64,000 nt of DNA. Origin: Gautieria morchelliformis. Lineage: Eukaryota; Basidiomycota; Agaricomycetes; Gomphales; Gomphaceae. Every line of letters starts with the position of its first letter. Position 1 is the stretch's first letter. Below are positions 1 through 38,068 of the stretch, one piece after another. The position numbers and the translations under genes are program-made. The DNA lies in assembly GCA_015179125.1 (NCBI GenBank), contig WHVA01000148.1:62001-126000 (forward strand), given 5' to 3'. The notes under the pieces were generated by a model, which worked only from the letters and a program-made list of their open reading frames with translations, made no database searches and was not told where the DNA came from.

Positions 1-1
1 G

Positions 2-430
2 TTGTGCAATTTGGATCAGAAGCAAGGACTATGCAATGGGACAAGGTTGCGGTTGGTGAGGATAAGCATTAGAGTGTTGGAGGTCAGGATCATCTCAGGT
101 CCATGTGCAGGAAATATTGCTTTCATCCCCAGGATCATCATTAAGCCATCAGAGGGAGAGTTGCCCTTTGTGCTGCAAAGGAGGCAGTTTCCAGTGCGTT
201 TGGCATTTGCAATGACTATCAACAAGTCTCAGGGACAGTCTTTGGGTACGGTTGGGATGGACCTGAGATATCCAGTGTTTGGACATGGTCAGTTATATGT
301 TGGTGTATCAAGAGGGACCAATTGGAACAGAGTGAAGGTCTTGCTTGAGGAGGGTTTGGACACAACCAACATTGTATATAAAGATGTATTACTTAGAGCT
401 CCTTCATTTTTTTATATCCACTTCTCGTGA
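2..430 (+). CDS. Helitron Pif1-like helicase, C-terminal part (partial)
   Basis: Partial frame of 142 residues, open to the left edge, ending at the TGA at 428-430. It is the C-terminal end of an SF1B Pif1-family helicase, which in Helitrons is fused to the Rep nickase and unwinds the transposon strand. Visible motifs are TINKSQGQSL (helicase motif V region) and YVGVSRGTNW (motif VI region). It is almost identical to the tails in Hel-C and Hel-D. The Hel-D copy stops after LLRAP, whereas here the frame runs on for several more residues, so the stop differs between copies. The start lies outside the window. Confidence 0.9.
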   Translation: MCNLDQKQGLCNGTRLRLVRISIRVLEVRIISGPCAGNIAFIPRIIIKPSEGELPFVLQRRQFPVRLAFAMTINKSQGQSLGTVGMDLRYPVFGHGQLYVGVSRGTNWNRVKVLLEEGLDTTNIVYKDVLLRAPSFFYIHFS

Positions 431-581
431 TATGGTTTATGTGTTTGGCTTCAGTTTACTTGATGCAAATTGATTACTTTGGTTTTCCCCAATGTACTTG
501 ACCTTACTGATATGTTATACTTACCAATGTGTTAGACTTACTGATGCATTTGACCTTACAGAGGCGCTTGACCTACACCCT

Positions 582-606
582 GCGCTTCGCGCGGGTACCC
601 ACCTAG
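582..606 (+). other. Helitron 3' terminus (Hel-1)
   Basis: A short GC stem-loop with loop TTC is followed by TACCCAC and CTAG (603-606), the classic Helitron 3' end. The next base is T, as expected for insertion between A and T. Confidence 0.85.
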
Positions 607-801
607 TTACTCTATTAGAAAGCAGCTCGGTGGGTTGTGGGTGTCGAGCTTATGTCAGGTTTCAGGTCAGCCTTAGTCAGCTGGCCAATCGGACGCGAGC
701 AGCGCAGCCGTGAGCATGAACGCTGCACAGCGGTCATGTGACCCGCTCGCGACCAGAGCGCGCATACGCGAGCGTGGTCTGTGCATGACACGCACGTGCG
801 G

Positions 802-807
802 TATAAA
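802..807 (+). promoter_or_regulatory. TATA box of the Hel-A promoter block
   Basis: TATAAA in the context GGTATAAAGGCCGAAC. The same block occurs at 13637-13642 in Hel-E and, more diverged, at 7448-7453 in Hel-B. An E-box-like palindrome (GGTCATGTGACC in this copy) lies about 60 bp upstream in each. A CT-rich stretch with repeated CTGTCTGCT words follows, as in a fungal transcription start region. Promoter activity is inferred. Confidence 0.5.
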
Positions 808-1374
808 GGCCGAACAGTAAGGAAGGAACGCCAGGAACCTGCCCAACCGGCATTTCCTCTCTCTGCTGTCTGCTCTGTCTGCTGTCTCCTCCTTTAGCTG
901 GCTGGCTGTCTATTGCTTTGGCTGGCTGGCTATCTATTGGATTGGCTGTCTTTCTATTGGTAGGTAATATCTTATTTTAATGCATTGCCATGTATTTATT
1001 TTATTTGTGTTGGTATTTTATTTGTTCCTTTTTTTTTCATCATATAGTATTGTCACATGTGCATTATATTTTTGTGATTTTTTCGCAAATAGATTTAAAT
1101 AACATCCAAAGACTGGTGAAAAAAATGTATTTTAATATCAATATTTTTCAGGTTTTTTCGAAAATAGACATCAATAAGTTTCCTCTAAAATTAATGACAA
1201 TAGATTCTGCCTTCAAATGTGGTTTGTTTTATTGTTTTATTTACTGTAAAGCCGCTTACCAGCCACTCCTCTCTGGCTATACTGGTGGCTGGCTTACTAT
1301 GGCTTTGGCTGGGCTCTGGGTTTCTCTGTCAGTCTCTGGGCTTCTCTGACTTTGGCTGGGCATTAATAACAGCT

Positions 1375-1800
1375 TCTGCTTCAATGTACTGTACTTTTTT
1401 GACATTTTTTCGCAAATAGATATCAATAAATTATCCTGACTTTGTGAAAATTGACAACAGCTCCAGGTTAAATGTACAGTGCATTTTTTGACATTTTTCG
1501 AAAGATAGATAATCCTAACTTTGCTAAAATTAATAACAGCTTTGTGTACTGAACATTTTTTTGACGCTTTTTCGAAAAATAGATAATCCTGACTTTGCTA
1601 AAATTAATAACAACTTCAGCTTAAACCTACTGGACATTTTTTTTTGACATTTTTCGAAAATAGATAATCCTGACTTTGCTCAAATTGATGACAGCAGCTG
1701 CTTAAATATGGTTTTCTTTACTATTTTATTTATGTTTGTATATGTCACAAAATAGATATTGATACATATCCCTGAGGTTGTTAAAAGTTAATGATAAGTA
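1375..1800 (+). repeat. Leader repeat array of Hel-A
   Basis: About four or five imperfect tandem units of 80-110 bp. Each has a T-run, TTTTCGAAAAATAGAT, ATCAATAAATT or a shortened form, CCTGACTTTGCTAAAATTAA and then ACAGC. The CTGAC followed shortly by ACAG resembles a fungal branch point and 3' splice site. Related arrays lie at 7610-8030 (Hel-B), 15405-15845 (Hel-E) and, in two-unit form, 18130-18350 (Hel-D). No coding content is seen. Confidence 0.7.
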
Positions 1801-1837
1801 ATAGCCTCTGCTTGTTTCACTTTGAGGCTGTTGGGGA

Positions 1838-2145
1838 TATGCTACACATGGGGACACATTACAAACAAGGGACTGCTATGCATGCTATAGGGGCATGCTA
1901 CACACTCTATAGGGACATGCTACACACACTATAGGGACATGCAATGCATGCTATAGGGAAACATGCTACACATGATACACTTGGGGACACGGTGCAAACA
2001 AAGGACATTCTGTACATGCTATACTTCGGGACAGGCTACAAACAAAGGACATGCTATGCACACTATACTTGAGCGACACACTATACACACTATACTTTAT
2101 GTGTGGGGACATGCTACACATGGGGACATGCTGCATGCACTACAA
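1838..2145 (+). repeat. Minisatellite, GGGACATGCTACACA-type
   Basis: Irregular repetition of GGGGACATGCTACACA and CACTATACTTG words, in units of about 17-29 bp. The same family is found at 6225-6365, 9341-9726 and 15895-16650. Its open frames are only readings of the repeat. Confidence 0.8.
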
Positions 2146-3594
2146 GCCTCGCCTGCGCTTCGCTTCAGCGAGTCTTTTGGAAAAGAGGCCTTGACGACTT
2201 GTCAGACAATCACTGATGTCAGGGTGGAACATACACCTGACAATACGCACCAACAGAAACGGGGAATGAAAGCACCGGTCTTCACGCTCGAAGCACTCCA
2301 ATTCATCTGCGAGTAGACCAACAGTGTATTCCATGAGAGGAATGTGCAGAACAATGTATGTGATGTATTGGAAATAGTCAAAGAAAGGATGAGTAAGAAA
2401 CCCAGCCATGAATGCAGGAAGAATGCCTCCTGTGAAAACGACAGGGTCTGGAGATGACTCGAAATGGGCATAACAGAGGCGTTGCCGACTTGTCTGACAA
2501 TCGCCAATGTCAAGGGAAGACTATACACATGCACTGACACTCTGAGGGTAGGAGGCAAGAAACAGCAAAGGACATGGCAGCCCAATCAGACACGAGGGTC
2601 ACGCATTAACAAATCATGATGAGTGGAAAATATGGGAGAGGAACGTAACTGTCAGATGGGTTGGCAGAATGGTGTCTGTGGATCCCATGAGAGGAACGCA
2701 CGGGTCAATGTACATGACAAATTCGAAAAACACAAACAAAGGATGTGTAAGAAGCCCCATGATAGACGACAGAATCTGTAGACATCATAGGACAAAACAG
2801 GAAAAGGAAACAATGGAGACACCAGGTTTATGAAGGTGAGACATGATACAAAAAGGCAGCTAAAGATATCGACGTTGTGAAACAATATAACACCGACAGC
2901 CATCGGAAGCCATGAAACAATCGAGACACAGGTCACATGGTACCAAAACACGGATAAATATATGCTGCAAACATGTATAGGTCGATTCATGTTCAACTCT
3001 GGACATGCAATGCATTAGACACACCAGTGGGAATGACATCATAAGCCCAGGTACTATGCAACAAATGACGAAAGATGATCCAGAAGTATAAGAAGGATGT
3101 ATGTCTCGGAACACGTAAAGTCTGAGACACAGACAGACAGAAAGAGTTTACGCCCAAAGAGGGGAAATCTGACAGAAAGGCATGGAACAGCAAACAGCGA
3201 AGATTCAGTGATCGCACTGTCATAGGAGAACGGACAACAATGTACGTTTAAAGAGCAAGATGGGAGGCAACATGACATGGGCACGTAAGCGGTGACAACG
3301 ACAGGCAATGATATGAATGTTTAAACACATACGTGCACGTTCTGAGACGTGGTCATATGGGAGTCTGTGAGAGGTGTTCTGTAAGTCGTTTGACGTATGG
3401 TAAGCATACTTTACTGAACCACTGACTCGCCCAAGCCCGTCCATATATCAACGCCAAGAACAGTCCGTGGTAGGTGAGTGATGTTGCCGCTTTTCACTGC
3501 TGTGATTCCTGAGAAAATTTGCGCTGCTTCTACAATGGGCCTCCGAGTCGCGTGCATCATGGTCGGTGGATCTTCACTGAGTCGAGCACCTCCC
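2146..3594. other. Unassigned stretch inside Hel-A
   Basis: About 1.4 kb absent from the sister Helitrons. It is rich in short overlapping frames on the - strand with hydrophobic, low-quality translations, none of which I recognise. Words such as GACTTGTCAGACAATC recur near 2195 and 2490. Base composition resembles 5741-6224 and the 33202-34038 insertion, so it may be LTR-type or other repeat DNA brought in with the captured genes. I found no clear terminal repeats. Confidence 0.4.
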
Positions 3595-3725
3595 ACCACG
3601 GATCTGTCTCCCAGTAACGCTTCGAAGCACATATAAGTCTAAGGGAATTCTCTCCTACCATGGATCTGTCTCCCAGTCATCACACTTCGAAGCACATATG
3701 ACTCCAAGGGAATTCTCTCCTACTG
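3595..3725 (+). repeat. Tandem duplication of about 66 bp
   Basis: Two adjacent copies begin near ACCACGGATCTGTCTCCCAGT and end near GGGAATTCTCTCCTAC, with small differences. The second copy runs into the coding-like stretch that follows. Confidence 0.75.
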
Positions 3726-4060
3726 TTATCCCTCTTCCACCGCCCCAGAAGTGGCTCCAATGTCTTCTCCATCGATATTTACGCCCCAGCCACATCCTAT
3801 CTGCATCACCACGCGCTCAGTACCAGAAGTCGCGCGCCCAGAGGATGCAACAACGTCCTTTGTGGGGTTCATCCTCCAGCCCCCGAGGATGCGCTACTGC
3901 GAGCAGCTCGAGTGCTTCTCGATACAATGAAATCGCCTCAGCCAGGCACTCGACCCAGTGTGCACACCTCGCAGTCCAGAATCCCAATCACCCCCGGCAC
4001 GGTCGGATGAAACACCATATCAACATTCGTACCCTGTCTACAACTGTTTTGCGTATTTGA
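3698..4060 (+). other. Coding-like segment, unidentified (possible captured exon)
   Basis: An open frame of 120 residues begins with an ATG inside the 66-bp duplication. It is rich in Ser, Pro and Arg. In an alternative frame, 3890-4010 reads EDALLRAARVLLDTMKSPQP, which looks more like natural coding sequence. I do not recognise either. It lies next to the captured TLDc and lysophospholipase pieces but on the opposite strand, so it could be another captured exon. Confidence 0.3.
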
Positions 4061-4199
4061 TGAACAATTTGTGTATCACTAGACTCCGGGCAACGTAGCT
4101 TACGGAGAGGTGGAGGTGGATTGTAGGCAACATAGCCTGCTCTATTCCGTTCCGCTCCCACATAATATGACCGCCGTTCTTCCTGCAATATCCTGAAAA

Positions 4200-4330
4200 C
4201 TTCTCGTGAATCTGATTGATAATGGAAATGGTGGGTGATGTAACATTACCTTTTTGTCGACTGCATCTATGGTTCGAGACCATCGTTCAGTAGCAGCCAA
4301 ACCCACGAGTGTTCTGGAAGCGACCGTGCT
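4200..4330 (-). other. Unidentified exon-like stretch
   Basis: Reading on the - strand, the stretch TLVGLAATERWSRTIDAVDKK spans about 4320 to 4255. It is flanked upstream by TTCCAG and downstream by AAG|GTAATG, which look like splice acceptor and donor. A following TTTTCAG near 4205 could be the next acceptor. It lies downstream of the TLDc exons on the same strand but does not match the TLDc end, so it may belong to a third captured gene. Confidence 0.3.
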
Positions 4331-4476
4331 CTAAACTTGAACCATCCGGGGACAACCGTAGTCTTCTGTAGTGACTCCCTATGTCTCATAATACAGATGC
4401 CTTTTAAGCAACGCGAAAGTGAAAATAAAAATATGAAAAAAGATAGTGGCGCCTGGGTTTTAGCCATCGATGGGAC

Positions 4477-4660
4477 CTAGTAACTATTGATCCGTCAATG
4501 AGGTTCGCGTCTAAATAAAGCCCATATTTGCCCTCGCTGAGGAACGGTATGAGATGCAAGGGAGAGATTACCAATGAAAGACCGAAACCCACCCTCCACC
4601 GAAAGAAATGAAAGTACCTTCGCACATCGACACATAATCGTTTTTACCAGTCCATTTCAT
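4477..4660 (-). pseudogene. Captured TLDc (OXR1-type) gene fragment, C-terminal exons
   Basis: Two exons of a TLDc-domain gene are visible on the - strand. The first (about 4660 to 4593) encodes KWTGKNDYVSMCEG and FISFGGG. A GT-AG intron follows (4592-4537), and the second exon (4536-4477) encodes EGKYGLYLDANLIDGS. The split Gly codon is restored exactly across the intron, giving FGGGEGKYGLYLD, the hallmark end of TLDc domains. OXR1/TLDc proteins protect against oxidative damage and bind the V-ATPase. The matching N-terminal exons lie at 5335-5735, separated from this piece by lysophospholipase sequence. The fragment has no start or promoter and is best read as Helitron gene capture. Confidence 0.75.
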
Positions 4661-5257
4661 TGCCGTCGATGCCCTGCGTCGCGATATCAAACGCTTGGTC
4701 TATGAAGGCCCGGACCTAGTATATCAGTTGCATAGAGGAGTTTTGCATCAGCGTTTAGTGTCACGCCAATCATCCTTTCAGCGCGCAGAACGCACGTCCT
4801 CAGGCGCATACGTAGTCTGCAGCGTCGGCGTGCCCGTCACGGGCGCCGCCCCATCTGCCGGCAGCCCGCCATTTGCGATGTAAATGAGCATAGGCATCTC
4901 CACCGAGTCGTTGCACCCGAAGAAGGTGGGGTGCCGCGTAAGGTTTTGCTGCACGAAGACGTCAGCTGTGGCGGGGATGGTGGGGAATGGGTAGAGGGAG
5001 CCGAATAACGCGGCGCGTTTGGCGGAATTCTGTGTAGTGGGATGGATGGAAAGATCAGATAGATGCTTTTTTTGCACCCGGGTTGATACGTACGATGAAT
5101 TCTGTGCTGTTCGCGAAGTTGTCTGCGGTATCAGCAGACTTCGAATTCCAAGCTTTTCGTGAGCAACGGCTGACAATTAAAAAAGCGGTCCCGGCGGACG
5201 TACGTCCCGCATCAATCGCAATGATAATGTCGACCGCCCTACAGACTCCTGTTCACA
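4647..5257 (-). pseudogene. Captured lysophospholipase (phospholipase B type) gene fragment
   Basis: On the - strand an exon encodes SADTADNFANSTEFI (5138-5094), preceded by IIIAIDA upstream. Together these recall the catalytic-Asp region of fungal lysophospholipases (consensus D-x-SADT). A 64-nt GT-AG intron (5093-5030) leads to an exon (from 5029) with FPTIPATADVFVQQNLTR, HPTFFGCN and IYIANGG, in the order known for the C-terminal third of the enzyme. FDIATQGIDGNEMDW near 4690-4648 fits the family's end. The enzyme family releases fatty acids from phospholipids at the cell surface. Only the C-terminal third is present. An in-frame stop lies before IIIAIDA, and a TGA at about 4778 ends the exon, so it is non-functional. 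It sits inside a split TLDc gene piece. Confidence 0.7.
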
Positions 5258-5334
5258 GTGCGTCACGGTTTTCCACAGAAATATACGTGTGGGAAACGTG
5301 AGGTCCACACAGGCTAGCAGCTGACTATACTCAC

Positions 5335-5735
5335 GAATCACCACTCCCATAGTACGCCCCAGGTGACAATCGCATTTGCTCACTCATCCAAGCTCCGAAT
5401 ATATGATCTTCAGAATCTTGTATGGCGATCAAGGTTCCAGCTACACGCACGGCACATCGTGCATAAAACGTCTGCAGGGAGACACCGTGCTGATCTAAAC
5501 TATAAAGCAAGGACCACGACTTTGCGAGACGAGGAAGGGCCCGTAGATGGGCCCGTATCTGGCAAGATAGTCAGCTAATAATGCCACATGGTGTCCTAAT
5601 TTCATGTATTATTACCTTTTCGGCAAGATGAGAAGTCAGGACTGGGGTGGTGCTGTCACGCCTTCCTGTCAGTTCGACCTTTCGCGACCCCGGTCCACCA
5701 CTTGTACGGGAGGTTGTAATGGCATCAATGAGCGT
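5335..5735 (-). pseudogene. Captured TLDc (OXR1-type) gene fragment, N-terminal exons
   Basis: On the - strand, an exon ending at 5616 encodes STTPVLTSHLAEK. A 57-nt intron (5615-5559: GTAATA, CTGAC, CAG) follows. The next exon (5558-5335) encodes LPRLAKSWSLLYSLDQHG, then DSEDHIFGAWMSEQ and GAYYGSGDS, ending at the donor GTGAGT. These are the conserved first half of a TLDc domain. The introns keep good fungal splice signals, so the piece was captured as genomic DNA, not cDNA. The expected next segment is replaced by lysophospholipase sequence, and TLDc resumes at 4660. The left limit near 5735 is the last residue that still looks coding. Confidence 0.75.
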
Positions 5736-5740
5736 GTCTT

Positions 5741-6224
5741 ACCAAGTGAGTGTTAGTTGCAATGAAAGAAACACAAACAAAAAAGAAAACCAGAGGTTGA
5801 CCTGCATGTGACATAACAGGTAAGCTGCGACAATGACAGAGAGTGAGACAAATGGACCCATGACACCAGTCTTGTGACCTATGACGACACACTCATCAAT
5901 GGTCATGAGAAAAAGAAACAAATAAGAGACGATAAGCAAGAAGAAAAAGAAATAAAAGGTGACCTGGCTCAAAAGCGACGACGGGTCAACAAAAGAAGAA
6001 CCGTTCAATAGGACATCAACCCCAACCGGTCACATCGCAAGCATGGAGCTGTAAACACATGGAAAGAAAGATGGGTGCGATACGAATGTCAGACGGCAAA
6101 AATGAAGAACCAACAGTGAGACAGATGGAGACATGGCCCAAAAAGGCTGAGAAAGCCGAGTCAAACAGGGGCAAAGGGACGCAAAATTTCACACGTCGTA
6201 TGCTTAATAGAAGAGTAATACTTC
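5741..6224. other. Unassigned A-rich stretch
   Basis: Purine-rich on the + strand (GAAAGAAACACAAAC type). No convincing frame, no terminal repeats found. It resembles 2146-3594 in style and may be the other half of the same foreign block. Confidence 0.35.
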
Positions 6225-7165
6225 AGGGAGTTACTATGCACACTATACTTGAGGACACACTATGCATTGGTGATATGCTACAAACCAGGGACATGCTATG
6301 GATGCTATATGTGAGGGACACCCTACATGTGAGGACATGCTATGTGTGAGATAGGGGACATGCAGACATGGGAGAAATTTGCAAAGTCATTACCTGTTAT
6401 GTATCGGGAATCCCGGAGTTTGGATCTAAAAAGAGAGCAGATTCAACTTATATGTTGCACCTCCAACTATCATCCTAAGTATTTCAGAGATCGGAGATCA
6501 GAAGTTGGAAGAGGTCAAGTATTGTAACTGAAGTAGGTATGAGTTCAATAATTGAGTTAAGTTGGATCAGACATTGAGTCAGAAGACAGAGATCAGAGAG
6601 ACAGAGGCCTTGCAAGTACTGGCTGTGCTAAGAACAGGAAACAGTGCAAATGGTGTCACATATTGAAGTCAATTATCTGATTGCAGAACAGAGGCATACA
6701 TGACTGGGTTTTATACAAAGAGCTGAGACAACATGTCAGAAGGTAGAGGTAAGCAATTCTGGTGCGAGTGAAAGTGACTAGGATAAATGGAGTAAGTAAC
6801 TAAGGTGGAACAAGAGGAACTACAAGGCAGTGCAGGGTAGAACTAAGAACAATGGGCAAAAGAACACGGGGCATGTAAGTCTAATTGATAGTGAACAAAT
6901 GGAAGTCCTGATGCTCCCGACTTCCTATGCTAAGGGTCAAGTACAAGTATGGAAGGCTGGTGAATAGAGTCATAAAGGGAAGCATGTGAATAGTAAATAA
7001 CAAGGGGATCAAAAGGTCAAAGTGTGGATGTTGCGGAATAGAGTCAGAGGAGGTGCGAAGGTACCAGAGTTGATCAAGCAGCATGGTCATAACATTACCT
7101 ACCTCAATGTGTTATTTAGAGCTACTTATGAGATTTACTTATCTGAATGTGTTTGACTTATCCCA
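6225..7165 (+). repeat. Minisatellite remnant and shared Helitron 3' trailer
   Basis: Positions 6225-6365 hold a short run of the GGGACATGCTA minisatellite. From about 6366 the sequence (CATTACCTGTTATGT, CAACTTATATGTTGCACC, and so on) matches 16680-17380 in Hel-E closely, so it is an ancestral part of these non-autonomous Helitrons. No open frame of note. Confidence 0.65.
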
Positions 7166-7169
7166 AGTT

Positions 7170-7262
7170 TGATTCACCCAATGCATTTGACCTTGCTGAT
7201 GCATTTGACCTTACTGATGCGCTTGACTTGCACCCCCACATGAAGCGTGAGTATCCACCTAG
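7170..7262 (+). other. Subterminal 18-bp repeats and 3' terminus of Hel-A
   Basis: Iterated TTGACCTTGCTGATGCAT units of 18 bp lead to a weak hairpin (ACATGAAGCGTG) and CCACCTAG. CTAG is at 7259-7262. The following bases are TCCCAAAGTGAAAC, the start of Hel-B. Confidence 0.75.
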
Positions 7263-7387
7263 TCCCAAAGTGAAACACAGGGGGTGGGTGGTTGTGGGCC
7301 TGCTGACCAATGCTTGGTCATTAGTTTGTCAGCGGAGCGTGCGAGCGGCACAGCCGCGAACTACAAACACTGCGCAGCAGCGTTCCA

Positions 7388-7399
7388 GGTCACGTGACC
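7388..7399. promoter_or_regulatory. E-box palindrome GGTCACGTGACC upstream of the Hel-B TATA box
   Basis: A perfect 12-bp palindrome with core CACGTG, the site bound by bHLH factors, about 50 bp upstream of TATAAA at 7448-7453. The same palindrome occurs in Hel-E at 13494-13505 and 13569-13580 and, in one base-changed form, in Hel-A. It also occurs in an unrelated LTR family (45516-45527, 54514-54525). Confidence 0.45.
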
Positions 7400-7609
7400 G
7401 GTTCACGACCATACGCGAGGGTGGTCCGTGCACGACCCTTTGCTTGGTATAAAGAGAGCAACGCTGCAGAACCGCACTCCCCACTGGTGTATTCCTGTGT
7501 TCTGGCTGTACTGGTGCTTACTATTGCTTTGGCTGGGGTCTTGGTGTCTTTCTGTGTGTCTCTGGGTGTCTCTGGGCTTCTTTGGCTGTGAATTGACACC
7601 AGCTTCTGC

Positions 7610-8030
7610 TTCAATGTCCTGTATATTTTTTTGATATTTTTTCGCAAATAGCTATCAATAAACCTAACTTGCTAACCTTAATAATAGCCAACTTAAATAT
7701 CCTGTACATTTTTTTGATATTTTTCGCAAATGGATATCAAAAATTATCCTGACTTTGCTACAGTTAATAACAACTTCTGTTTTAATGTAGTGTGTTTTTT
7801 TTTATCTTTTTTCAAAAAACAAATCTAGATATAAATGAATTATCCTGACTTTGCTAAAATTATTACACCTTCAGGTTGAATGTACTGTACATTTTTTTGA
7901 CATTTTGTCAAAAGGTAGATATCAATAAATTGTCCTGACTTTGCTAAAATTAATGCCAACAGCTTCTTAAATGTGGTTCCTTTTGCTATTTTATATATGT
8001 CACAAAATAGATACTAATACATGTCCCTGA
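7610..8030 (+). repeat. Leader repeat array of Hel-B
   Basis: About four imperfect units with TTTTTGATATTTTTCGCAAATAG, ATCAATAAATT and CCTGACTTTGCTAAAATTA, matching the arrays of Hel-A and Hel-E. Confidence 0.7.
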
Positions 8031-8055
8031 TGTGTGAGGACACGTTACATGTGGG

Positions 8056-9335: not shown

Positions 9336-9340
9336 GTGGG

Positions 9341-9726
9341 GACACGTTACCTGTGGGGACGCATTACGCGTGAGGACACGCTACCTGTGAGGACACGTAT
9401 GTGTGAGCACATGCTAACGCTACCTGTGAGGACATGTTACATGTGGGGACATGTTACCTGTGGGGACACACTACCTGTGAGGACACGTTACCTGTGGGGA
9501 CACGTTACATGTGGGGACACGTTATGTGTGGGGACATGCTACCTGTGAGGACACGTGACATGTGGAGACACGCTACGTGTGAGGACAGGTTATGTGTGAG
9601 GACACATTACCTGTGGAGACACGTTACATGTGAGGACATGTTACATGTGGGGACATGTTACATGTGGGGACATGTTACGTGTGGGGACACGCTACCTGTG
9701 AGGACACATTACGTGTGAGGACATGC
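9341..9726 (+). repeat. 17-bp minisatellite, about 22 copies
   Basis: Units of the form TGTGGGGACACGTTACC with G/A and T/C variants, nearly uninterrupted. Because 17 is not a multiple of 3, all frames stay open only by chance of composition. The encoded repeats (CYLWGH-like) should not be taken as protein. Confidence 0.9.
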
Positions 9727-9730
9727 TATC

Positions 9731-10062
9731 CAACTGCACTTTGGGTCTCCCCCCATTTCTGATTTTGGTATTGTTTCTGGTTCTGTGAGAGTGTCACCGG
9801 AGGATCAGCTGGCATATCGATATAACCACATTGTCAACATTCAGGATCCCCAAGATCACTATTGGATCTATTTCACAATGCACAAGCTTTGAAACCTGTG
9901 GATTATGACAATAGGCGCAATATTATAATCTCTGATGATTCAGTCAAGACCATTACCACTTTCATGTCTAGAGTCGCTGGGAAAGCCATCCCAGAGGTCA
10001 AGAGGGAGGTCTGCATGTTCAGCTGTTCCAGGGGGGCATACATGATTCATGATAATATATGA
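9731..10062 (+). other. Coding-like stretch in Hel-B, unidentified
   Basis: Two short frames follow each other. From 9731 a frame with VSPEDQLAYRYNHIVNIQ runs to a TGA at 9890-9892. An overlapping frame (9862-10062) with NIIISDDSVKTITTFMSRVA runs to a TGA. The composition looks coding and the switch looks like a frameshift in a degraded captured exon. I do not recognise a family. Confidence 0.35.
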
Positions 10063-10100
10063 ACAGGGATATAATTTGCATAATGCTTTTTATTTGCCAC

Positions 10101-10205: not shown

Positions 10206-10254
10206 TCTAAGAGTGAAACGCGCTCAGTGGGTTGTGGGCGTCGAGGCTGACAAA

Positions 10255-13273: not shown

Positions 13274-13304
13274 TGCAAATTGGTTACTTTTATTTTCCCC
13301 AATG

Positions 13305-30000: not shown

Positions 30001-30192
30001 GTGGTCCCACAGCTTCCGTGGAGGCAGGGTATCAAACGACTCCTTGGAAAAGACGTCCTCAAACTCCCGCAGGTACTCCGGAATTTCCGCCTCCACTCTA
30101 TCATACCTCTTAGAGGCTTCAGCAAGGCATTGCGAGATATTTCCGGTGGCGCGGATGTGTTCCGCCTCCGGCGGAAGGTTTACGTACAGCAA
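26845..30192 (-). CDS. Gypsy pol block: reverse transcriptase, RNase H, integrase, chromodomain
   Basis: Open block of 1115 residues. Seen in order: RT with KKDGSLRLVQDYRALN and YLDDILIF; RNase H with VEADSSDAATGAVLSQ; the integrase zinc region with HDTRVAGHAGRW and CDLCLRNK; the catalytic core with VDFIVELP and TTAYHPQGDGQTERVNQ; a chromodomain with YVVERILDSRFVRGRLQFLV and WEGYGYEENSWVPEQ. The chromodomain places it among chromoviruses, which target heterochromatin. Part of the element at 26586-32814. Confidence 0.93.
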   Translation of the reverse strand: MLYVNLPPEAEHIRATGNISQCLAEASKRYDRVEAEIPEYLREFEDVFSKESFDTLPPRKLWDHAIELEPGSKPTNCKVYPLSPKEQVELDAFLAENLRTGRIRPSKSPMASPVFFIKKKDGSLRLVQDYRALNAITIKNRYPIPLISELITQLRGARYFTKLDVRWGFNNVRIREGDEWKAAFRTNRGLFEPQVMFFGLTNSPATFQTMMNDIFRDMIAEGVVCIYLDDILIFTKTMSEHREVVRRVLERLREYNLCLKPEKCEFERTRIEYLGVIVSEGKVEMDPVKVSGVSDWPVPRNKKEVQSFIGFVNFYRRFIKDFSCHARALFDLTKKEVGWRWGEPEQTSFDKLKELITSAPVLIFPDDARPYRVEADSSDAATGAVLSQQSSEDGGGWHPIAFFSKSLSPVEQNYEIHDKEMLAIIRALEEWRHFLEGALCPFEIWTDHKNLEYFRTSKKLNRRQARWSLHLSRFDFMLHHRPGRTMGKPDALSRRADHGSGSGDNADMTLLRPSLFAIRALEGVTAVGAEAEMLRDIRRQYRNGEKEESVVKAVEELRKGHSRSVRAAEWSERDGLLHFRGKVYVPGGADLRRRIVSQHHDTRVAGHAGRWKTLELVARNYWWPQMSRYIGQYVKTCDLCLRNKAQRRPPVGELVPLPIPESRWDTISVDFIVELPESHGYDAIMNVVDSVSKVSHFIPTHTTITALGAARLFLAHVWKLHGLPKQVVSDRGPQFVAELTRELYRLLGIKLATTTAYHPQGDGQTERVNQELEQYLRLFVNERQDDWDELLPLAEFQYNNHVHSATQQTPFMLDSGRHPRMGFEPRQAESRLETVNEFRDRMDSTLSEAKSALAKAKDDMARYYNRRRVPAPEYQVGDKVYLDASDIRTTRPSQKLAHRYLGPFTVTRRVGRNAYRLRLPMSMSRLHPVFNVVKLLPMLEDPIPHRKAHPPPPPEIVDGEEHYVVERILDSRFVRGRLQFLVKWEGYGYEENSWVPEQDVSAPDKLREFYRTHPGAPRRIRSLAFQSLVSRASRTQHARGGVMSGDTLFSISSSDTTPSSDSISDSASGSDSISASAFGNDSASGRTSTSSVRLASSTPISDFRPGTVSEIKRLA

Positions 30193-30279
30193 GCGCTCCC
30201 CTTCCGTCAGAGTGTCTTCCAGGCCGAGTCGGATGGCGTCGGAATCGGAATTGGAAGGGGGATCCGGGTCAAATTCCGC

Positions 30280-30975
30280 TTACGAGTCTTCTTCTGCAAG
30301 CAGTGGATGGGGGCCGGAACGACATGTCTGTATGAGCCGTTCGGTCTTCCGCTGCTCCTGGCGCTCCTTCCGCACTTCCGACCGGCACATGTGACACTTG
30401 GCTGGACACCGACTCATCAGTACCTTCCGAGTCTGCCAATTGATCTCCGGGTTGTGCTCTTGAAGCCAGGTAAACCCGAGGATGATGTCTTGCTTCCCCA
30501 GGCTGGTGACAGCGAAGGAAGTGCGTTCCGAGTGTCCATCGTAGCGGAGAATTGTGTCCACTATCTCCGTGATGGACCCTGCCTCATTGGGGCTTCCATC
30601 CACATTGAACACCGGGATTGCACGTTGCAACTTCCGCGTCGTCAGTCGGTTCCGTTCCACATAGTCCCGGTCCATAAACTGACCAGTGGCCCCGCAATCG
30701 ACAAGGGCGGGTCCGGATTTGACTTCCGCCGTATCGGTCGTCTGGATCTCTACCTTAATGACTAGTGACTTGGGGCCAGGGGTGGCAGCAACAACATAGC
30801 GCTTCGGAAGGCGTCTCTCCCAAGGGCGGATGCGGGATGGACGGGGTGTCAGATTTGGTTTTTGTGTGACTTTATCCGGTGGGTCTGTACGAAGTGAGGG
30901 GAGTGGGGGCTTTTCATTCTCTACTTCAAGACAGGCAAACCGGTTATGTACAGGCAGCAGGGGCACACATCTCAC
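30280..30975 (-). CDS. Gypsy protease block
   Basis: Open block of 231 residues between gag and pol. VDCGATGQFMD is the aspartic protease active-site region, and ILGFTWLQEHNPEINW is the typical following motif. It overlaps the gag block end by a few bases. Confidence 0.85.
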   Translation of the reverse strand: MRCVPLLPVHNRFACLEVENEKPPLPSLRTDPPDKVTQKPNLTPRPSRIRPWERRLPKRYVVAATPGPKSLVIKVEIQTTDTAEVKSGPALVDCGATGQFMDRDYVERNRLTTRKLQRAIPVFNVDGSPNEAGSITEIVDTILRYDGHSERTSFAVTSLGKQDIILGFTWLQEHNPEINWQTRKVLMSRCPAKCHMCRSEVRKERQEQRKTERLIQTCRSGPHPLLAEEDS

Positions 30976-32345
30976 CCGCTGCGTGTCACAAAATCCGACG
31001 CATCTTCCGCTTCCGGTAGACCATGTTCCGCATTTTCGGAAAGTTCTTCCGCAGTGGGCACTCCGTTTATGTCTGCAAGTGCGAGGAACTCTGGAAGGAG
31101 CTCGAGTTTCTCCTCTGTGGTCATAAGCCGGATATCAAAGGCTTGGGGGCACTCGCGAGCATAGTGGCCTGGTTGTCGGCAGCGGAAGCAGGTGATAGTT
31201 CCGTGGCCTTTTCCGCGCATGCGGTCAACATCCATCGGGGCAGGGCCACTCTTCGAGGGAGGGGGGCTATGGTTCCTAATAGGAGCAGGCGGAGCAAGCA
31301 TCGGAAATAATTTCCGTGTGGGAATGAATGCGCTTCCGGGTTTTGGCACAGGTGGAGTAGGACGAGCGGAACTGCGTGTCGTGTTCCGACTCGTCTCCAC
31401 GAAGGCCTCATTTGCGTCCCTGTTCCGAGAAACCTTCTGCGCGGCTTGGTACCACCCTTCCGGGTCATCAAAATCCGGAGCTCCATCCCCAAGCAGCGCA
31501 ACTTGGTTCTGGAGCGTCGGATCAAGTCCTCGTCGGAATTTGATGACGATCGTCTTGTCGTCGTCATATTCCGCAAGGTCGATGAGCTCCTGGAAGCGAT
31601 CGATGTAGTCATCGACCGGATCTTTGGCCTGGTACCAGCTCGTCCCCTCGAGCTTTGTAAGGGCTGTGAGCTGCTCGTTTTTCGGGCAGAACTGGTCGGA
31701 AAATGTTTTCTCGAACGCGTCCCAGTCCCGGAAGTAGTTCCCCTTGCCCTTTGCTTCATGTCGGATCACCTTGTTTGCAAAACGGGCTGCGCGGTCCGAT
31801 TTGAAAAAGGACAATGTCCAGTGAATCCGAGCCTGGTCATTCGGAAAGAGGTCTCCGACAATTGCGAAGTAGATGCTGCATGTGTTGAAGAATGCGCGTC
31901 CCTTCTCCCGATCTCCGTCAAAGTCCGCCGGAGTTGCGGGTTTGACCTTTGCTAACTTCGCGGACATCCTCTTTTCCGCTAGTTCCGCTTTTCCGAAATC
32001 CGGATCATCCAGCATTTCATTTCCACCACCTTGTGGAATATCTAACTTAGCCAAAATCGCTTGTAAGGCTGTTTCAATCGCGTCGGTCTTCATCCGGTTC
32101 CGCGTCAATTCCTCCTCCATATTCCGAAGACGATCGTCCGGATCCATGTTGGAAGGAGAAATATGGGACGGGATTTCCAGGGTTGGGAGCTCGACGTAAG
32201 AAGAGGGGCTGTCGTACACTGTATGTGCGGAAGAGGTTGCGATCTCCGAGTCGCTGTCTCCGATTCCGAACGCACCTATGGCGAATGCAACGTGCAGTAC
32301 GACCGCCGGTCCTCTAGGGGAGAGACTTTTCTGCTGTAAGGGCAA
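30972..32345 (-). CDS. Gypsy gag block
   Basis: Open block of 457 residues. Gag capsid-like region in the middle (DWDAFEKTFSDQF, SWYQAKDPVDDYIDRFQELI), and the zinc knuckle CFRCRQPGHYARECP near the end. Starts at the LTR edge. Confidence 0.9.
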   Translation of the reverse strand: MPLQQKSLSPRGPAVVLHVAFAIGAFGIGDSDSEIATSSAHTVYDSPSSYVELPTLEIPSHISPSNMDPDDRLRNMEEELTRNRMKTDAIETALQAILAKLDIPQGGGNEMLDDPDFGKAELAEKRMSAKLAKVKPATPADFDGDREKGRAFFNTCSIYFAIVGDLFPNDQARIHWTLSFFKSDRAARFANKVIRHEAKGKGNYFRDWDAFEKTFSDQFCPKNEQLTALTKLEGTSWYQAKDPVDDYIDRFQELIDLAEYDDDKTIVIKFRRGLDPTLQNQVALLGDGAPDFDDPEGWYQAAQKVSRNRDANEAFVETSRNTTRSSARPTPPVPKPGSAFIPTRKLFPMLAPPAPIRNHSPPPSKSGPAPMDVDRMRGKGHGTITCFRCRQPGHYARECPQAFDIRLMTTEEKLELLPEFLALADINGVPTAEELSENAEHGLPEAEDASDFVTRSG

Positions 32346-32814
32346 CCCTGGCTAGTCGTGGAGATCACACTACCACACAACTGACAAGGGGAAATCCAAA
32401 GTATGTATAAATGAACAGAGCATACAAGAGAAGGGGTTCTCACCTGACAAGGGGAAATCCAAAGAGAAAAGTCTAAGGACCCCCAATGTCAGCGAGCCCA
32501 TATTATACTACGCTGCGCAGCCAGGGACAACACTTGGCACCCGCCATCAACCCTGCATCCCCCTGACCCTTGATCGACCCTTGATGCTACCTATTATGCG
32601 AGTCGCTTGATTTCCGACACTGTTCCGGGGCGGAAGTCGGAAATTGGAGTGGAACTGGCAAGGCGAACGGAACTGGTGGAAGTTCTCCCAGAAGCGGAAT
32701 CGTTCCCGAAAGCGGATGCGGAGATGGAATCGGAACCGGAAGCGGAGTCGGAAATGGAGTCGGAACTGGGTGTGGTGTCGGAACTGGAAATGGAAAACAG
32801 GGTGTCCCCTGACA
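32335..32814 (-). repeat. 5' LTR of the gypsy chromovirus
   Basis: 480 bp, one visible difference from 26586-27065. Followed by CCTGA and the resumed Helitron frame. Confidence 0.95.
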
Positions 32815-32819
32815 CCTGA

Positions 32820-33201
32820 AGCATGTGATCTGCTCTATGTGGAGTTTCCTGAGCATTTTACCTGGCAATCACAGGAAAAGGTATGGACACCACGCCAAGG
32901 AGGTTATAGCATTGGTCGCCTTCACTTTGCAAACCCTAAATCAGGAGAGAGATTTTTTGTGCGCACTCTCCTCACAGTGGTCAAGGGGGCTAGATCCTTT
33001 GAGGAGCTTAGGTCGGTGGATGGCATACAATATGCTACTTACAAGGAGGCCTGTCGTGCAAGGGGACTTCTGGATGACGATCAGGAGCTGAGGTTGTGTC
33101 TCCAGGAAGCCAGTGGCATGAAAACAGGTGCTCAGCTCAGACATCTCTTTGCCACCATCCTTGGCCATTGCAATGCATCGGGTCCCGGCAGACTATGGGA
33201 T
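32820..33201 (+). pseudogene. Helitron RepHel, region before the helicase (Hel-D piece 3)
   Basis: Resumes as EACDLLYVEFPEHFTW, then VWTPRQGGYSIGRLHFANP, FFVRTLLTVVKGARSFEEL and QLRHLFATILGHCN. This is the conserved linker between Rep and Pif1 domains in Helitron proteins. The frame is open until LWD, where the 837-bp insertion starts after the target duplication GGGAT (33197-33201). Confidence 0.9.
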
Positions 33202-34038
33202 CGGTAGGGGCGCATTGGCGCCAGTCCCCGACTCCATTGTGGGATAGGGATCATGCTGTCGATATTATTTTTTCAGACGATGTATTCTCTCGTAAGTTAC
33301 TGATTGCGTTTATATACATGTTGATATTACAGATTCAGACAACAAAATTTTTCATAAGGTCCATTTGCGTTTTTATACAGATATATTTGTTACACTTAAC
33401 ACAACAATCGGTACGAGACAGGGAAATACCGGCACCTGATGTCAAAGAAACCAAAAAGGACGCGGTGTGACATAGAACAAGGGAGCTGAGGTGATCGTAA
33501 GGAGGAGAGCACCAATGCGGAAGCACAGACGGAGGAGAGACAGCTGAAGACATAGACGAAGAAGTGGAGGGTACGTGAGTCACAAATATGGACGAGGAAC
33601 ACTAAACAAATCAAAACAACAAGGCAACGGCATGGCATAGGTCAAACAGCAATAGACACGGTCAGCCAAGAAGTGCAGAGAGGGCAAAAAGGACATACCT
33701 TGTAGATGGGATGCAGACAAGAAAAGGTGAACGGTACGCAGCAGCAAAAGGAGAGGACCACAATAAGACATTTAGAGAGAACAGGCAAAACTAATTAGGC
33801 GTGCAAGATGGCAATGAGCCCGAGATATTGATGGGATACAATGTCATCGGAGATCGACACATATAACAGCCCGAGATAATGATCGAAAGGAAAGGGACCG
33901 AGTGGTACCAGACACTGGTCACCGAACATGAATGGGATAGTAGTCACAGGCATCTTAGGAGTTAAACCTGACAAGGCACGCTAGGTATCCGACCCCCATC
34001 TTGTCGACAGAACCCTCCCCTCCTTTCAGTCGGAGTCA
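33202..34038. mobile_element. 837-bp insertion of unknown class (LTR-like) in Hel-D
   Basis: Bounded by the 5-bp duplication GGGAT (33197-33201 and 34039-34043). Removing it rejoins the Helitron frame exactly. On the - strand it starts TGACTCCGACTG with a purine-rich tract (AAAGGAGGGGAGGG), then TTCTGTCGACAAG, and it ends with ACTGGCGCCAATG. That order recalls polypurine tract, LTR and primer-binding site, which is not the layout of a normal solo LTR. No coding sequence. Confidence 0.7.
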
Positions 34039-34043
34039 GGGAT

Positions 34044-34329
34044 GGCTTCAAGGAGCACATATGTGATGATCTCAGACATCAGCTCCAAATCAGACATGGT
34101 ATTCAGGATCCATGGGACAATCAGGTTTATTATTTTGGCCTCTTTCTCCTGGAAAAAATCCTCCAGCAGGGTGGAATGTCCTTGAGCAGCTTTGATGATA
34201 TGCCTTGGGTGGCAGGTGAGTGGGAGGCCCTCATTGGAAACAGGTTCATAGCTGAGCAGAGGGACTATGACCCTGTTGAATAGAGCGACATAGCTGATGA
34301 GGAGGGTCCTAAGCTGAATGAGGGGCAAA
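34044..34329 (+). pseudogene. Helitron RepHel, pre-helicase region (Hel-D piece 4)
   Basis: Reads GFKEHICDDLRHQLQIRHG, YYFGLFLLEKILQQGG and MSLSSFDDMPW, then IAEQRDYDP, typical of the stretch just before the Pif1 Walker A motif. A TAG at about 34280 interrupts the frame. The piece ends at LNEGQ with the target duplication GCAAA (34325-34329). Confidence 0.85.
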
Positions 34330-35383
34330 TGTTAAGACCCGTTCCTGAGTGCGGACCCAAGGCCTCGGTCTCGGTTCTCACTCGATGTTACAACCGTTCA
34401 TTTCCGACTTCCGACTCTCAGTTCCGCAACACCTTCCGCCCCTATGATATTTCCGCAACACTTTCCGCCACTCCGATATTTCCGACATTCCGCCCATTGT
34501 TATATTCCCTTGTTCTTTCGACTCTATTACTCGGACCCACCTGACCCGTTTCATCGTTCATCAAAACCACATATCCGGTCACCCTTGTAATTCGTTGTCA
34601 GATATGTTTTCCCGACCCCTTGTTCTTTGCCATTGTTCTACCTTACCCTGAACCCCCCTTGTAGTCCCATTGTTCCCAATAGTTAGTTCCCACGCATTGT
34701 CTACTCGACTTCTGCTTCCTCCGGAATTTGCTTAGTACCCTGTCATTACCTGTTGTCTCAGCTCTTTGTATAAAAGCCTGTCATGTATGTCTCTTATTCT
34801 GCAATCAGATAATCGCCTTCGATACTTGATTTCCTTCGCTCCATCTCCTCTTCTTAGCACAGCGAGTCTAGCAAGATCTCAGTCTCTCTCCGCCTTCCAC
34901 CTTCCGCCTCCCACCTCAGTTCCGACTCAAGTTCCCACCAAACCTTTGGTTCAGTACTTTCCGACTTCCGACTTATTTCAGAAATACCTAGGACGATAGT
35001 TCATTGGGGGTGCAACCTACAAGTTGAAGCCGCTGTCCTTTCCAGTTCCGACTTAATGGAAATCTCAATATGTAACACTCGAGAACCTTCGGGCTTAACT
35101 CGGGTTCCCTATCGGTTCATCATTCACCCTGATCCCCATTCCGAGATAGTCCTGTTCCATTTCTGATGATTGTCCGTCGACCCTGCTTCCTGCTCGATAC
35201 GGGCATTGATGCCCTCTTTCCGTTCCTTGCAAATTAGAATATAAACCCCCCATCATGTACACTAATTCCTCAGTTCTGATATCGACTTAGATTCCTCGTA
35301 TCTTCCGCTCCTCTGTCTGATCCTTGTTTCCGAACCTCAGCTTCCAGCTGAACCCGTCTCCGATTCTGTTTCCTGACTTAACA
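34330..35383. mobile_element. Solo LTR (family L360) in Hel-D, itself carrying another solo LTR
   Basis: Starts TGTTAAG and ends CTTAACA, with an inverted 7-bp match at its ends. Flanked by the exact duplication GCAAA (34325-34329, 35384-35388). Subtracting the nested LTR and its duplication leaves about 357 bp. Confidence 0.88.
34386..35077. mobile_element. Solo LTR (family L690) nested in the L360 LTR
   Basis: 692 bp, TGTTACAACCG to ATATGTAACA, target duplication CTCGA (34381-34385, 35078-35082). Near-identical copies at 40536-41225 and 60523-61183. It holds a promoter-like TTTGTATAAAAGCC and many TTCCG words. Confidence 0.92.
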
Positions 35384-35388
35384 GCAAA

Positions 35389-35735
35389 GGTCTGCGCATG
35401 ATCAGATATTATGGTCGGCACTGACCAGAGATGCTCATGGGAAACCTGATGGACAAATGTTTTTTGTCACTGGATCAGGTGGCGCTGGGAAATCATTCAC
35501 ATGGAACACTCTAATCCACTCCTGTAGAGTGGAGAGCCTCATTGTGATTGCAGTAGCCTCATCTGCAAGGGCTGCACTTATCCTCACTAAGGGTACAACC
35601 TCTCATAGCATGCTTGGAATTCCCATTCCTGTCCATGAGCGCTCTCTCTCCTCCATCACAAAGAACTCTGGCAAGGCTGACATGCTCAGACATGCCAGTC
35701 TCCTCATCTGGGATGAGGCTGCAATGCAGCATCGC
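35389..35735 (+). pseudogene. Helitron Pif1-like helicase, Walker A/B region (Hel-D piece 5)
   Basis: Resumes as RSAHDQILWSALTRDAHG, then Walker A FVTGSGGAGKSF, then LIVIAVASSARAALIL, TTSHSMLGIP and Walker B LLIWDEAAMQHR. These bind and hydrolyse ATP. The piece is open throughout and ends at the target duplication ATCGC (35731-35735). Confidence 0.92.
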
Positions 35736-36225
35736 TGTAAGGGCAACCCTGGCTAGTTGTGGAGATCACACTACCACACAACTGACAAGGGGAAATCCGA
35801 AGTATGTATAAACGAATAGAGTACACAAGAGAGGGGGTTCTCACCTGACAAGGGGAAATCTGAAGAGAAAAGTCTAAGGACCCCCAATGTCAGCGAGCCC
35901 GTATTATACTACGCTGCGCAGCCAGGTACAACACTTGGCACCCGCCATCAACCCTGCATCTCCCTGACCTCCCTGACCCTTGATCGACCCTTGATGCCAC
36001 CTACTATGCGAGTCGCTTGATTTCCGACACTGTTCCGAGAGCGGAAGTCGGAAATTGGAGTGGAACTGGCAAGGCGAACAGAACTGGTGGAAGTTCTCCC
36101 AGAAGCGCAATCATTTCCGAAAGCGGAGGTGGAGATGGAATGGGAACCGGAAGCGGAGTCTGAAATGGAGTCGGAATTGGGTGTGGTGTCGGAACTGGAA
36201 ATGGAAAACAGGGTGTCCCCTGACA
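35736..36225 (-). mobile_element. Solo LTR of the gypsy chromovirus family in Hel-D
   Basis: 490 bp, TGTAAGGGCAACC to CCCCTGACA, duplication ATCGC (35731-35735, 36226-36230). It is a more diverged relative of the 480-bp LTRs of the young element, in the same orientation, so it is an earlier insertion reduced by LTR recombination. Confidence 0.93.
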
Positions 36226-36230
36226 ATCGC

Positions 36231-37259
36231 CATGTCATAGAGGCCATTGACATGACACTGCGGGATTTCCTTGACCAGCCTGACCGACACTTTGGTGGCA
36301 TCACAGTCGCCTTTGGAGGTGACTTTCAGCAGACTCTGCCAATTGTCCCTAAAGGCTCCAAGGAGGATATCGTGGGAGCTACCCATCAGAAGTCATATCT
36401 GTGGCCAAAGATCAAGGTCCTCCATCTGACAGAGAACATGCGGGTGAGAAATGACCCTGACAGAGCCAGGTTTGCAGAATGGCTGCAGAATGTGGGCCAG
36501 GGAAAGGATCTCCCACTAGATCATATGTTCTCACTGCCTCCTCACATGGTTTGTGGCCCTGGAATTGAAGATCTGATCCAGGAAATATACCCTGGCATTG
36601 GCAATCAAGTCCCTGCCCAGGACAATTACTTTTTGGAGCATGCCATCCTCTGTGCCAGAAACACTGAGGTCAATGAGATCAATTCCATGGTGTTTAGGGA
36701 GTTTCAAGGTGATGCTCAGGTCTTGCACTGTGCAAATTCCATTGAAGAATCCGACGATGCAGATCGGTATCCTCTGGAGTATCTGAATTCCATAGAGATG
36801 GGCTGTCTTCCTCCTGCTCGCTTGGAAGTCAAGCCTGGAGTGCCTCTGATGCTGTTGCGCAATTTGGATCAGAAGCAAGGACTATGCAATGGGACAAGGT
36901 TGCGGTTGGTGAGGATAAGCATTAGAGTGTTGGAGGTCAGGATCATCTCAGGTCCATGTGCAGGAAATATTGCTTTCATCCCCAGGATCATCATTAAGCC
37001 ATCAGAGGGAGAGTTGCCATTTGTGCTGCAAAGGAGGCAGTTTCCAGTGCGTTTGGCATTTGCAATGACTATCAACAAGTCTCAGGGACAGTCTTTGGGT
37101 ACTGTTGGGCTGGACCTGAGATATCCAGTGTTTGGACATGGTCAGTTGTATGTTGGTGTATCAAGAGGGACCAATTGGAACAGAGTCAAGGTCTTGCTTG
37201 GGGAGGGTTTGGACACAACCAACATTGTATATAAAGATGTATTACTTAGAGCTCCTTGA
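36231..37259 (+). pseudogene. Helitron Pif1-like helicase, C-terminal half (Hel-D piece 6)
   Basis: Open frame with VIEAIDMTLRDFLDQPD, AFGGDFQQTLPIVPKG (helicase motif III region), HLTENMRV (motif IV region), NSIEMGCLPPARLEVKPG, TINKSQGQSL and YVGVSRGTNW. It stops after LLRAP at 37259. The frame is also open to the left through the end of the adjacent LTR (from 36060), by chance. Hel-C and Hel-1 hold near-identical copies of the last part. Confidence 0.93.
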
Positions 37260-37339
37260 TTTTTTTATATCCACTTCTCTTGATATGGTTTATGTGTTTT
37301 ACTTCATTTTACTTGATGGAAATTGATTTGATTTTCCCC

Positions 37340-37456
37340 AATGTACTTGACCTTACTGATATGTTAGACTTACCAATGTGTTAGACTTACTGATGCATTT
37401 GACCTTACTGAGGCGTTTGACCTACACCCCAGCGCGAAGCGCGGGTACCCACCTGG
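37340..37456 (+). other. Trailer and 3' terminus of Hel-D
   Basis: Repeated CTTGACCTTACTGATATG / GACTTACTGATGCATTTGACC words, hairpin GCGCGAAGCGC, TACCCACCTGG. Ends CTGG instead of CTAG, still within the CTRR rule. Confidence 0.88.
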
Positions 37457-38068
37457 TTACTATATTAGAAAGTAGCTCGGTGGGTGGTTATGGGTGTAGT
37501 AGACAGGAATTATAGGCAGTAGGTATGGACTTGTTGCTCAAAAGAATAGACTAGAAAACAATTCACTCTCTCAGTGAATTTAGTTGTCACTGTAAATATA
37601 TTATACACTACCTAGAAAACAATTCACTACAGAGGATTTCTAGGTTAATAAATCGAAAGAATGCTAGACTAATTTACTTGCCTCTCTCAGTGAATTTAGT
37701 TGTCACTGAGAGCGGGGGAAATCTGTTTCACTGCGCATGTACTACTACCTGGCCCTTTAGCGCCCAAGAGCTCGCGCGTCGAAGTCATTTCAGACTCCGC
37801 TGGGTGCAGTCGCTTGTGAAAGTAGGAATAACAAGATGAAATGGAGAGATAGGGAGTGAGTGGAAATTTTCGAAAATAACCAGAGAAATGGATGCATGAT
37901 AGAAGAACAATATGAGAAGAAATTGAGAAACCACACAACAAATTGGATATATTATGCTTGATTTTGGTGCAGGAGCATAAATGCACCCAACAATGGGCGC
38001 GCTGACCAATGCTTGGTCATTAGTTTGTCAGCGGAGCGCGCGAGCAGTGCAGCCGTGAGCCCCTGGCC
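37457..38068 (+). mobile_element. Hel-F: 5' fragment of a further Helitron
   Basis: Begins TTACTATATTAGAAAGTAGCTCGGTGGG directly after the Hel-D end. It resumes after a solo LTR as CGCGCTGACCAATGCTTGG, matching the Hel-D and Hel-B 5' blocks up to CCCCTGGCCCTA (about 38068), where similarity stops. Confidence 0.75.
37495..37992 (-). mobile_element. Solo LTR (family Lc495) in Hel-F
   Basis: 498 bp, matching the LTRs of the copia element at 19451-24698, with duplication ATGGG (37490-37494, 37993-37997). Confidence 0.9.

Follow-up and report, generated by a model that had tools for sequence, protein, structure and literature searches.

The 64-kb window analysed here (64,000 nucleotides of Gautieria morchelliformis; assembly GCA_015179125.1, contig WHVA01000148.1, positions 62,001 to 126,000 of the forward strand) opens with a mixed array of canonical Helitrons arranged head to tail, which on balance was probably built mainly by successive insertions at the exact edge of Helitrons already in place. 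Three of its units bear RepHel (U0, U3 and U5), three are presumed to be non-autonomous (U1, U2 and U4), and the last is a chimeric remnant (U6). All coordinates are positions in the window. Units U0 to U6 and junctions J1 to J6 are numbered from left to right; these labels, like the 3'-end types A and B, which were distinguished by eye in the alignment, and the start kinds c and t, were coined in this analysis.

The original prediction had placed six Helitron 3' ends at 606, 7262, 10205, 13365, 17485 and 37456, each followed by the next start after 0–4 bases. When the junctions were aligned this was borne out: all six ends are present, five with the terminal tetranucleotide CTAG and one (37456) with CTGG, both of the CTRR form, and at every one of them the next unit begins at the very next base (gap 0 at 6/6). 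Each 3' end abuts the 5' start of the following unit on the same strand (6/6), as is characteristic of a tandem Helitron array. No A is present between the ends at any junction (0/6), and all six junctions are G/T. The 3' ends have a common layout, in which an 18-bp repeat, present one to three times, is followed by a hairpin stretch and TA(C/T)CCACCT(A/G)G. The starts are of two kinds. Those of kind c begin with TC (7263, 10206 and 17486), the canonical 5' terminus of Helitrons, whereas those of kind t begin with TTAC (607, 13366 and 37457), each kind accounting for 3/6; HELPO families in Pleurotus are described as beginning with T[C/G] (PMC4289320).

Three pairings of end and start are seen, all on the + strand (a slash marks the junction). 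The A-type ends (606, 10205, 13365 and 37456) precede t starts at J1 (603..610, ACCTAG/TTAC), J4 (13362..13369, ACCTAG/TTAC) and J6 (37453..37460, ACCTGG/TTAC), and a c start at J3 (10202..10209, ACCTAG/TCTA). The B-type ends (7262 and 17485) precede the c starts of two unlike bodies, that of U2 at J2 (7259..7266, ACCTAG/TCCC) and that of U5 at J5 (17482..17489, ACCTAG/TCTA). The start motifs quoted in the prediction hold as a consensus but not to the letter, since GCTC(A/G)GTGGGTTGTGGGCG is present at two sites and TTACTCTATTAGAAAG at one, whereas AAAAGTGAAAC, which forms the core of the second quoted start, is absent.

Hidden Markov models (HMMs) of ends and starts recovered the six ends (E 7e-17 or better) and the six starts (E 7e-6 or better). 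As the models were built from these same six sites, only the absence of further sites is informative, and no further complete 3' end or start was found with them on either strand of the 64 kb. The other matches of the 3' model below E 1 are partial (20–29 bases, best E 1.7e-5) and fall on the 18-bp repeat that immediately precedes these ends; leftover matches had E values of 1.7 or worse (3' model) and 2.4 or worse (start model). A 24-base 3'-end pattern, itself derived from the sites, gave six matches with up to three mismatches, compared with none in each of 100 shuffles. The 18-bp repeat, TTGACCTTACTGATGCAT, is present in 13 copies (up to four mismatches), every one on the + strand and no more than 110 bases upstream of one of the six ends. 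A c-type subterminal model built without U1 and U4 still detected both of these units, at 624 and 13385 (E ~1e-7), and the two kinds of start therefore share that region. The exact 23-base 3'-end pattern had no match in viral contigs and none in prokaryotic genomes, where a eukaryotic element is hardly to be expected. No matches were returned by Rfam at gathering scores or by a tRNA scan.

A hairpin, as expected of Helitrons, had been predicted at each end. It is the best fold at five of the six, and at 7262 it is degenerate (−0.2 kcal/mol, with 140 out of 200 shuffles equally good). The hairpins at 606 and 13365 beat all 200 shuffles, and those at 10205, 17485 and 37456 were matched by 9, 15 and 21 out of 200, respectively. 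Requiring a perfect hairpin of 7 bp or more ahead of CTRR returned 13365 only, and is too strict for the other ends. The loop of the hairpin at the 606 end (586–588) reads TTC and that of the other five ends GAA (e.g. 37436–37438), as if the hairpin had been inverted in place.

Five units are complete (607–7262, 7263–10205, 10206–13365, 13366–17485 and 17486–37456), so that of the six or seven Helitrons predicted five stand as whole units, U0 being cut by the window edge and U6 being chimeric with no detected 3' end. The statement that all ends are kept was slightly too strong. U0 (1..606, +) is the 3' part of a RepHel Helitron, with the C-terminus of the helicase in an open frame, a CTAG 3' end and a hairpin z of −3.7; its 5' part lies outside the window. 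It is 95.7% identical to U5 (605 columns) and 96.9% identical to U3 (511 columns). U3 (10206..13365, +; TC start, A-type end) is a RepHel Helitron which retains a Pif1 2B domain and has an internal deletion, and at the breakpoint (12638/12639) sequence like that at 19221 in U5 is joined to sequence like that at 36682. U5 (17486..37456, +; TC start, A-type CTGG end) spans 20 kb through four insertions of long terminal repeat (LTR) type and measures ~7.3 kb without them. It is identified as a RepHel Helitron by gene pieces matching Helitron_like_N (E 2e-37), PIF1 (E 5.9e-26) and Pif1_2B (E 6.2e-18).

The remaining complete units are of a different nature. U1 (607..7262, +; TTAC start, B-type CTAG end with the degenerate hairpin) and U4 (13366..17485, +; TTAC start, B-type end) are homologous to each other at both ends and form one family, presumed to be non-autonomous; the middle of U1 (~2143–6219) has no match in U4, and U1 has no RepHel DNA in common with U5. 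U2 (7263..10205, +; TC start, A-type end), likewise presumed to be non-autonomous, contains AT-rich repeats and a 17-bp minisatellite in common with U1 and U4 and is a c-start relative of that family. The designation of U1, U2 and U4 as non-autonomous is based on the lack of shared RepHel DNA and on partial Pfam scans, which covered selected open reading frames (ORFs) of U1, U2, U3 and U5. The selected U1 ORFs gave sub-threshold matches only. Neighbouring units thus differ from one another, the bodies of U1/U4, U2 and U3/U5 being distinct.

Beyond 37456 the start of a further unit, U6 (37457..38075, +), is seen, in which a TTAC-type tip is fused to a TC-type subterminal region. With an inserted LTR set aside, the first 26 bases of U6 match U1 at 24, U4 at 21, U5 at 16 and U2 at 13 positions. 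Over the next 90 bases (gapped alignments) the order changes to U5 (75), U2 (66, barely above U1), U1 (64) and U4 (64), and BLAST aligned 37994–38071 to U5 (90% over 79) and 37994–38058 to U2 (89% over 65), listing neither U1 nor U4. The simplest reading of these similarities is that U6 arose by deletion between the GGTGGG..TGTGGG repeats that a t unit had in common with the c unit behind it, and a t unit would therefore once have stood there too. No 3' end of U6 was found in the 64-kb window with the end HMM, and the unit could be followed no further than ~38075.

The claim of tandem Helitrons joined end to start is supported by the RepHel domains, the CTRR ends, the hairpins, the subterminal repeats and the exact CTRR/T joins in several combinations. 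Because ends and starts combine in a modular fashion, at least four abutments (J1-type, J2, J3 and J5) seem to call for an event each, even on the assumption that J4 and J6 were copied from J1. That Helitrons should have landed exactly at an edge four times by chance is not credible, and we therefore infer that the insertions were directed to the edges. A canonical event may suffice for this: a new Helitron inserting into the A/T at the left edge of a resident Helitron would leave a G/T junction without an A. Insertion at the left edge would need no new rule and predicts leftward growth of the array, with the oldest units at the right. Later changes would have included the internal deletion in U3, LTR-type insertions, possibly the copying of some neighbour pairs and, in the case of U6, a putative deletion between the subterminal repeats of neighbouring units.

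Several properties of the units agree with this model. Among the units with both ends (n = 5) a c start goes with an A end in 3/3 and a t start with a B end in 2/2, a pairing to be expected of units that are each an element; the chance of a perfect match is 1 in 10, by hand count in a small sample. The helicase pieces of U0, U3 and U5 differ by synonymous and nonsynonymous changes of 3:2, 5:3 and 4:3 at ~98:325 sites (pairwise and not independent, small counts), which suggests from the sequences that the RepHel copies diverged while functional, not as local dead duplicates. Insertions were sought everywhere by the same self-comparison, which misses those without a second copy in the window. 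All six array insertions with target duplications fall in U4–U6, which account for 43% of the length once inserts are subtracted (P 0.007, or 0.03 when a partial repeat in U2 is included), and this crowding in the right-hand units weakly supports leftward growth. In maize, HelAs are described as preferring insertion near or inside other Helitrons (PMC3288121).

A number of points weigh against successive insertion at the edges. Half of the starts (3/6) are TTAC and not TC. All junctions seen (6/6) are internal to the array, no host flank of the array lies in the window and its left end is beyond it. According to Pritham and Feschotte, as cited in PMC2267711, independent insertions should leave a host A between elements, which is found at none of the six junctions, although insertion at the left edge would escape this objection. 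Some maize lines are described as carrying the left element of a pair alone, which fits rightward growth, the right element having landed at the GT that follows the 3' end of the left one, unless the right one was later excised (PMC2267711). The age signal is a weak one: it was noticed after the fact and consists of six insertions, of which a single unit holds four. Finally, a t start comes after each of the RepHel units (3/3; 4 out of 140 random orders, or 3 out of 60 with the first unit kept as RepHel), a pattern which hints at paired movement.

The same pattern would follow if a RepHel unit and the t-started passenger behind it (U0+U1, U3+U4 and U5 with a lost unit) formed one composite Helitron running from TC to a B-type CTAG. 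The inner CTAG/TTAC would then have been inherited from a single read-through event, and the array would consist of about four units and not seven. The composite would also explain why the c starts begin with TC (3/3) and the t starts do not (0/3), and read-through by Helraiser is estimated to capture flanking DNA in ~11.7% of events (PMC4778049). The divergence between J1 and J4 is equal on both sides (14/124 mismatches left, 14/137 right; Fisher P 0.84), as a jointly moving pair would have it; however, it is also equal at J2/J5 despite the unlike downstream bodies (34/299 and 11/91; P 0.85). Such equality is hence unspecific, and the two-sided divergence fails to separate independent insertion from the copying of pairs. 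Furthermore, the supposed inner ends keep CTAG (2/3) or CTGG and include the two strongest hairpins (606 and 13365), although 99 out of 100 internal pseudo-termini sampled in maize are reported to be without an intact CTAG (PMC3288121), and U1 and U4 join t starts to B ends of their own. We regard composite elements as rather unlikely here; the TTAC starts may be either real transposon ends or the internal junctions of a two-part element.

Block duplication, in which unequal recombination or rolling-circle multimers copied an existing RepHel/passenger pair and most junctions are copies of a few events, would explain why J1 and J4 are alike on both sides, with J6 resembling them on the left and over the first bases to the right, and why J2 and J5 are likewise alike on both sides. 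Recombination did act at this locus, as judged from the U3 deletion and the U6 chimera. Yet homology past J2/J5 stops after ~97 bases because the bodies of U2 and U5 differ, J3 is a unique combination, and non-coding distances of corresponding parts are ~0.05–0.20 (Jukes–Cantor), so that none of the copies would be recent. We consider this origin improbable for the array. That separate Helitron copies were misjoined at repeats during assembly is highly improbable. Repeated ends do invite misjoins, but these usually occur in long near-identical repeats and the corresponding non-coding ends differ here by several percent; moreover, three end/start combinations are found and the nested insertions retain both target duplications.

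Two simpler schemes were rejected. A rolling-circle multimer of one element or circle is excluded by the different bodies and end types of neighbours, and one giant Helitron whose inner ends have decayed does not agree with the kept inner CTRR and the three ways in which ends and starts combine. The predicted observation is thus confirmed and its interpretation partly supported: read-through of a single element as the sole cause finds no support in neighbours that differ in body and end type, and repeated insertion beside a previous end fits better, the route itself being our reconstruction. Beyond successive edge insertion as such, it may be supposed that the Helitron transposase of this host prefers, as its target, the 5' edge of resident Helitrons with its donor nick site, giving a one-way stack to which autonomous and parasitic units were added leftward in time order. 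This more specific proposal is tentative and rather unlikely.

Tandem Helitron insertions are mentioned for bat, Drosophila, rice and maize (PMC5148889). The maize pair in AF466202 (PMC2267711) resembles the present case in that two unlike Helitrons lie head to tail, with CTAG followed by TC at a G/T junction, and is credited to consecutive insertion. It is, however, one pair with a TC start, and its description there contains no alternation of RepHel and passenger units, compared with six junctions here. In Metarhizium acridum three tandem Helitrons are described as a single case with non-canonical termini of the FoHeli type (PMC5148889), in contrast to the CTRR ends and mixed units of this array. 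In bats, too, Helitrons are joined head to tail in perfect junctions with no A between them (Pritham and Feschotte 2007, as cited by PMC2267711 and PMC4067079), but the citing papers describe these as tandem repeats of Helitrons, whereas neighbouring units differ here. Distantly related Helitrons are sometimes directly adjacent in bat and maize, and tandem arrays occur in bat and silkworm, as cited in PMC4067079. In plants, tandem Helitron-derived arrays are described as consisting of truncated units (Xiong et al. 2016, as reported in PMC12628747); many of these arrays have several 5' ends but one 3' end each, as opposed to six 3' ends in the present array. Helraiser/Helibat resembles the present case as a RepHel relative with a CTAG end and a hairpin, and joined-end circles and read-through were demonstrated for it (PMC4778049); it is, however, a reconstructed single element, and three of the starts here are TTAC.

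No mixed array that retains six 3' ends was seen among the matches listed in the literature search, which covered titles and the starts of abstracts and left subscription literature mostly uncovered, so that this is no proof of absence. The prediction called the array unusual. It is unusually long and mixed, although the arrangement itself is known from maize, bats and one fungus, with pairs, a triple and tandem arrays already published. If the units were added singly at the exact edge, the array would be a dated record of Helitron targeting, and would allow a test of the origin of tandem Helitrons (read-through, circles or self-targeted insertion) and of the direction of growth. It also shows how autonomous and non-autonomous Helitrons become neighbours, a setting from which composites with multiple termini can arise.

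The Rep region of U5 aligns to Helraiser (PDB 7lcc) with E 2.2e-64, through GLPHMHIL and KYIHKYLYKG. The gene is broken by insertions and by a frame change, and since the Rep region is in two frames and a stop is present in the C-terminus, this copy looks dead. The motifs GLPHMHIL and KYIHKYLYKG we take to be those named HUH and two tyrosines in Rep. A Walker-like stretch, GSGGAGKS, was noticed by eye within 35078–35735. Between two pieces of the RepHel gene, 33208–34385 has many stops in all three forward frames and is perhaps a further insertion or an intron. A comparison of the helicase piece with viral contigs gave four candidate stretches, none of them a relative.

The four insertions in U5 each have target duplications of 5 bp. 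They are a Copia-type retrotransposon (19451..24698, − strand; LTRs 99.2% alike; CAAAC), a Gypsy-type retrotransposon (26586..32814, − strand; LTRs 99.6% alike; CCTGA), both typed by eye from their frames, a solo-LTR-like repeat of 692 bp (34386..35077; CTCGA) and a solo LTR of the Gypsy-type element (35736..36225; 93% to its LTRs; ATCGC), no strand being assigned to the latter two. U4 carries a solo-LTR-like insertion (14122–15399; target duplication TAAAG) for which U1 has the empty site, and the LTR in U6 is a solo Copia-type LTR (37495..37992, strand not assigned; target duplication ATGGG) with 95.9% and 95.5% identity to the LTRs of the Copia-type element. A reversed partial copy of an LTR-like repeat is found in U2 (8403–9337). 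Near the 5' end of U3 there is a 144-bp minisatellite (10539–11467; 6.5 copies, 93% matches). An open frame of U1 (4781–5176, − strand) matches the catalytic domain of lysophospholipase (PLA2_B) below threshold, with E 0.033, and is possibly a captured fragment of a host gene.

A repeat of ~690 bp with TGTTAC..GTAACA ends occurs at 34386–35077, 40536–41225 and 60523–61183, with the 5-bp duplications CTCGA, GATAG and GATAT, respectively. A relative (~70% alike) sits inverted in U1 and U4, and the copy at 60523 adjoins a frame with an endonuclease-reverse-transcriptase match. Finally, 45383–46927 and 54381–55433 are direct repeats, 93–98% alike and ~9 kb apart, and are perhaps long LTRs; a frame between them has matches to copia-type gag and Pol_BBD.

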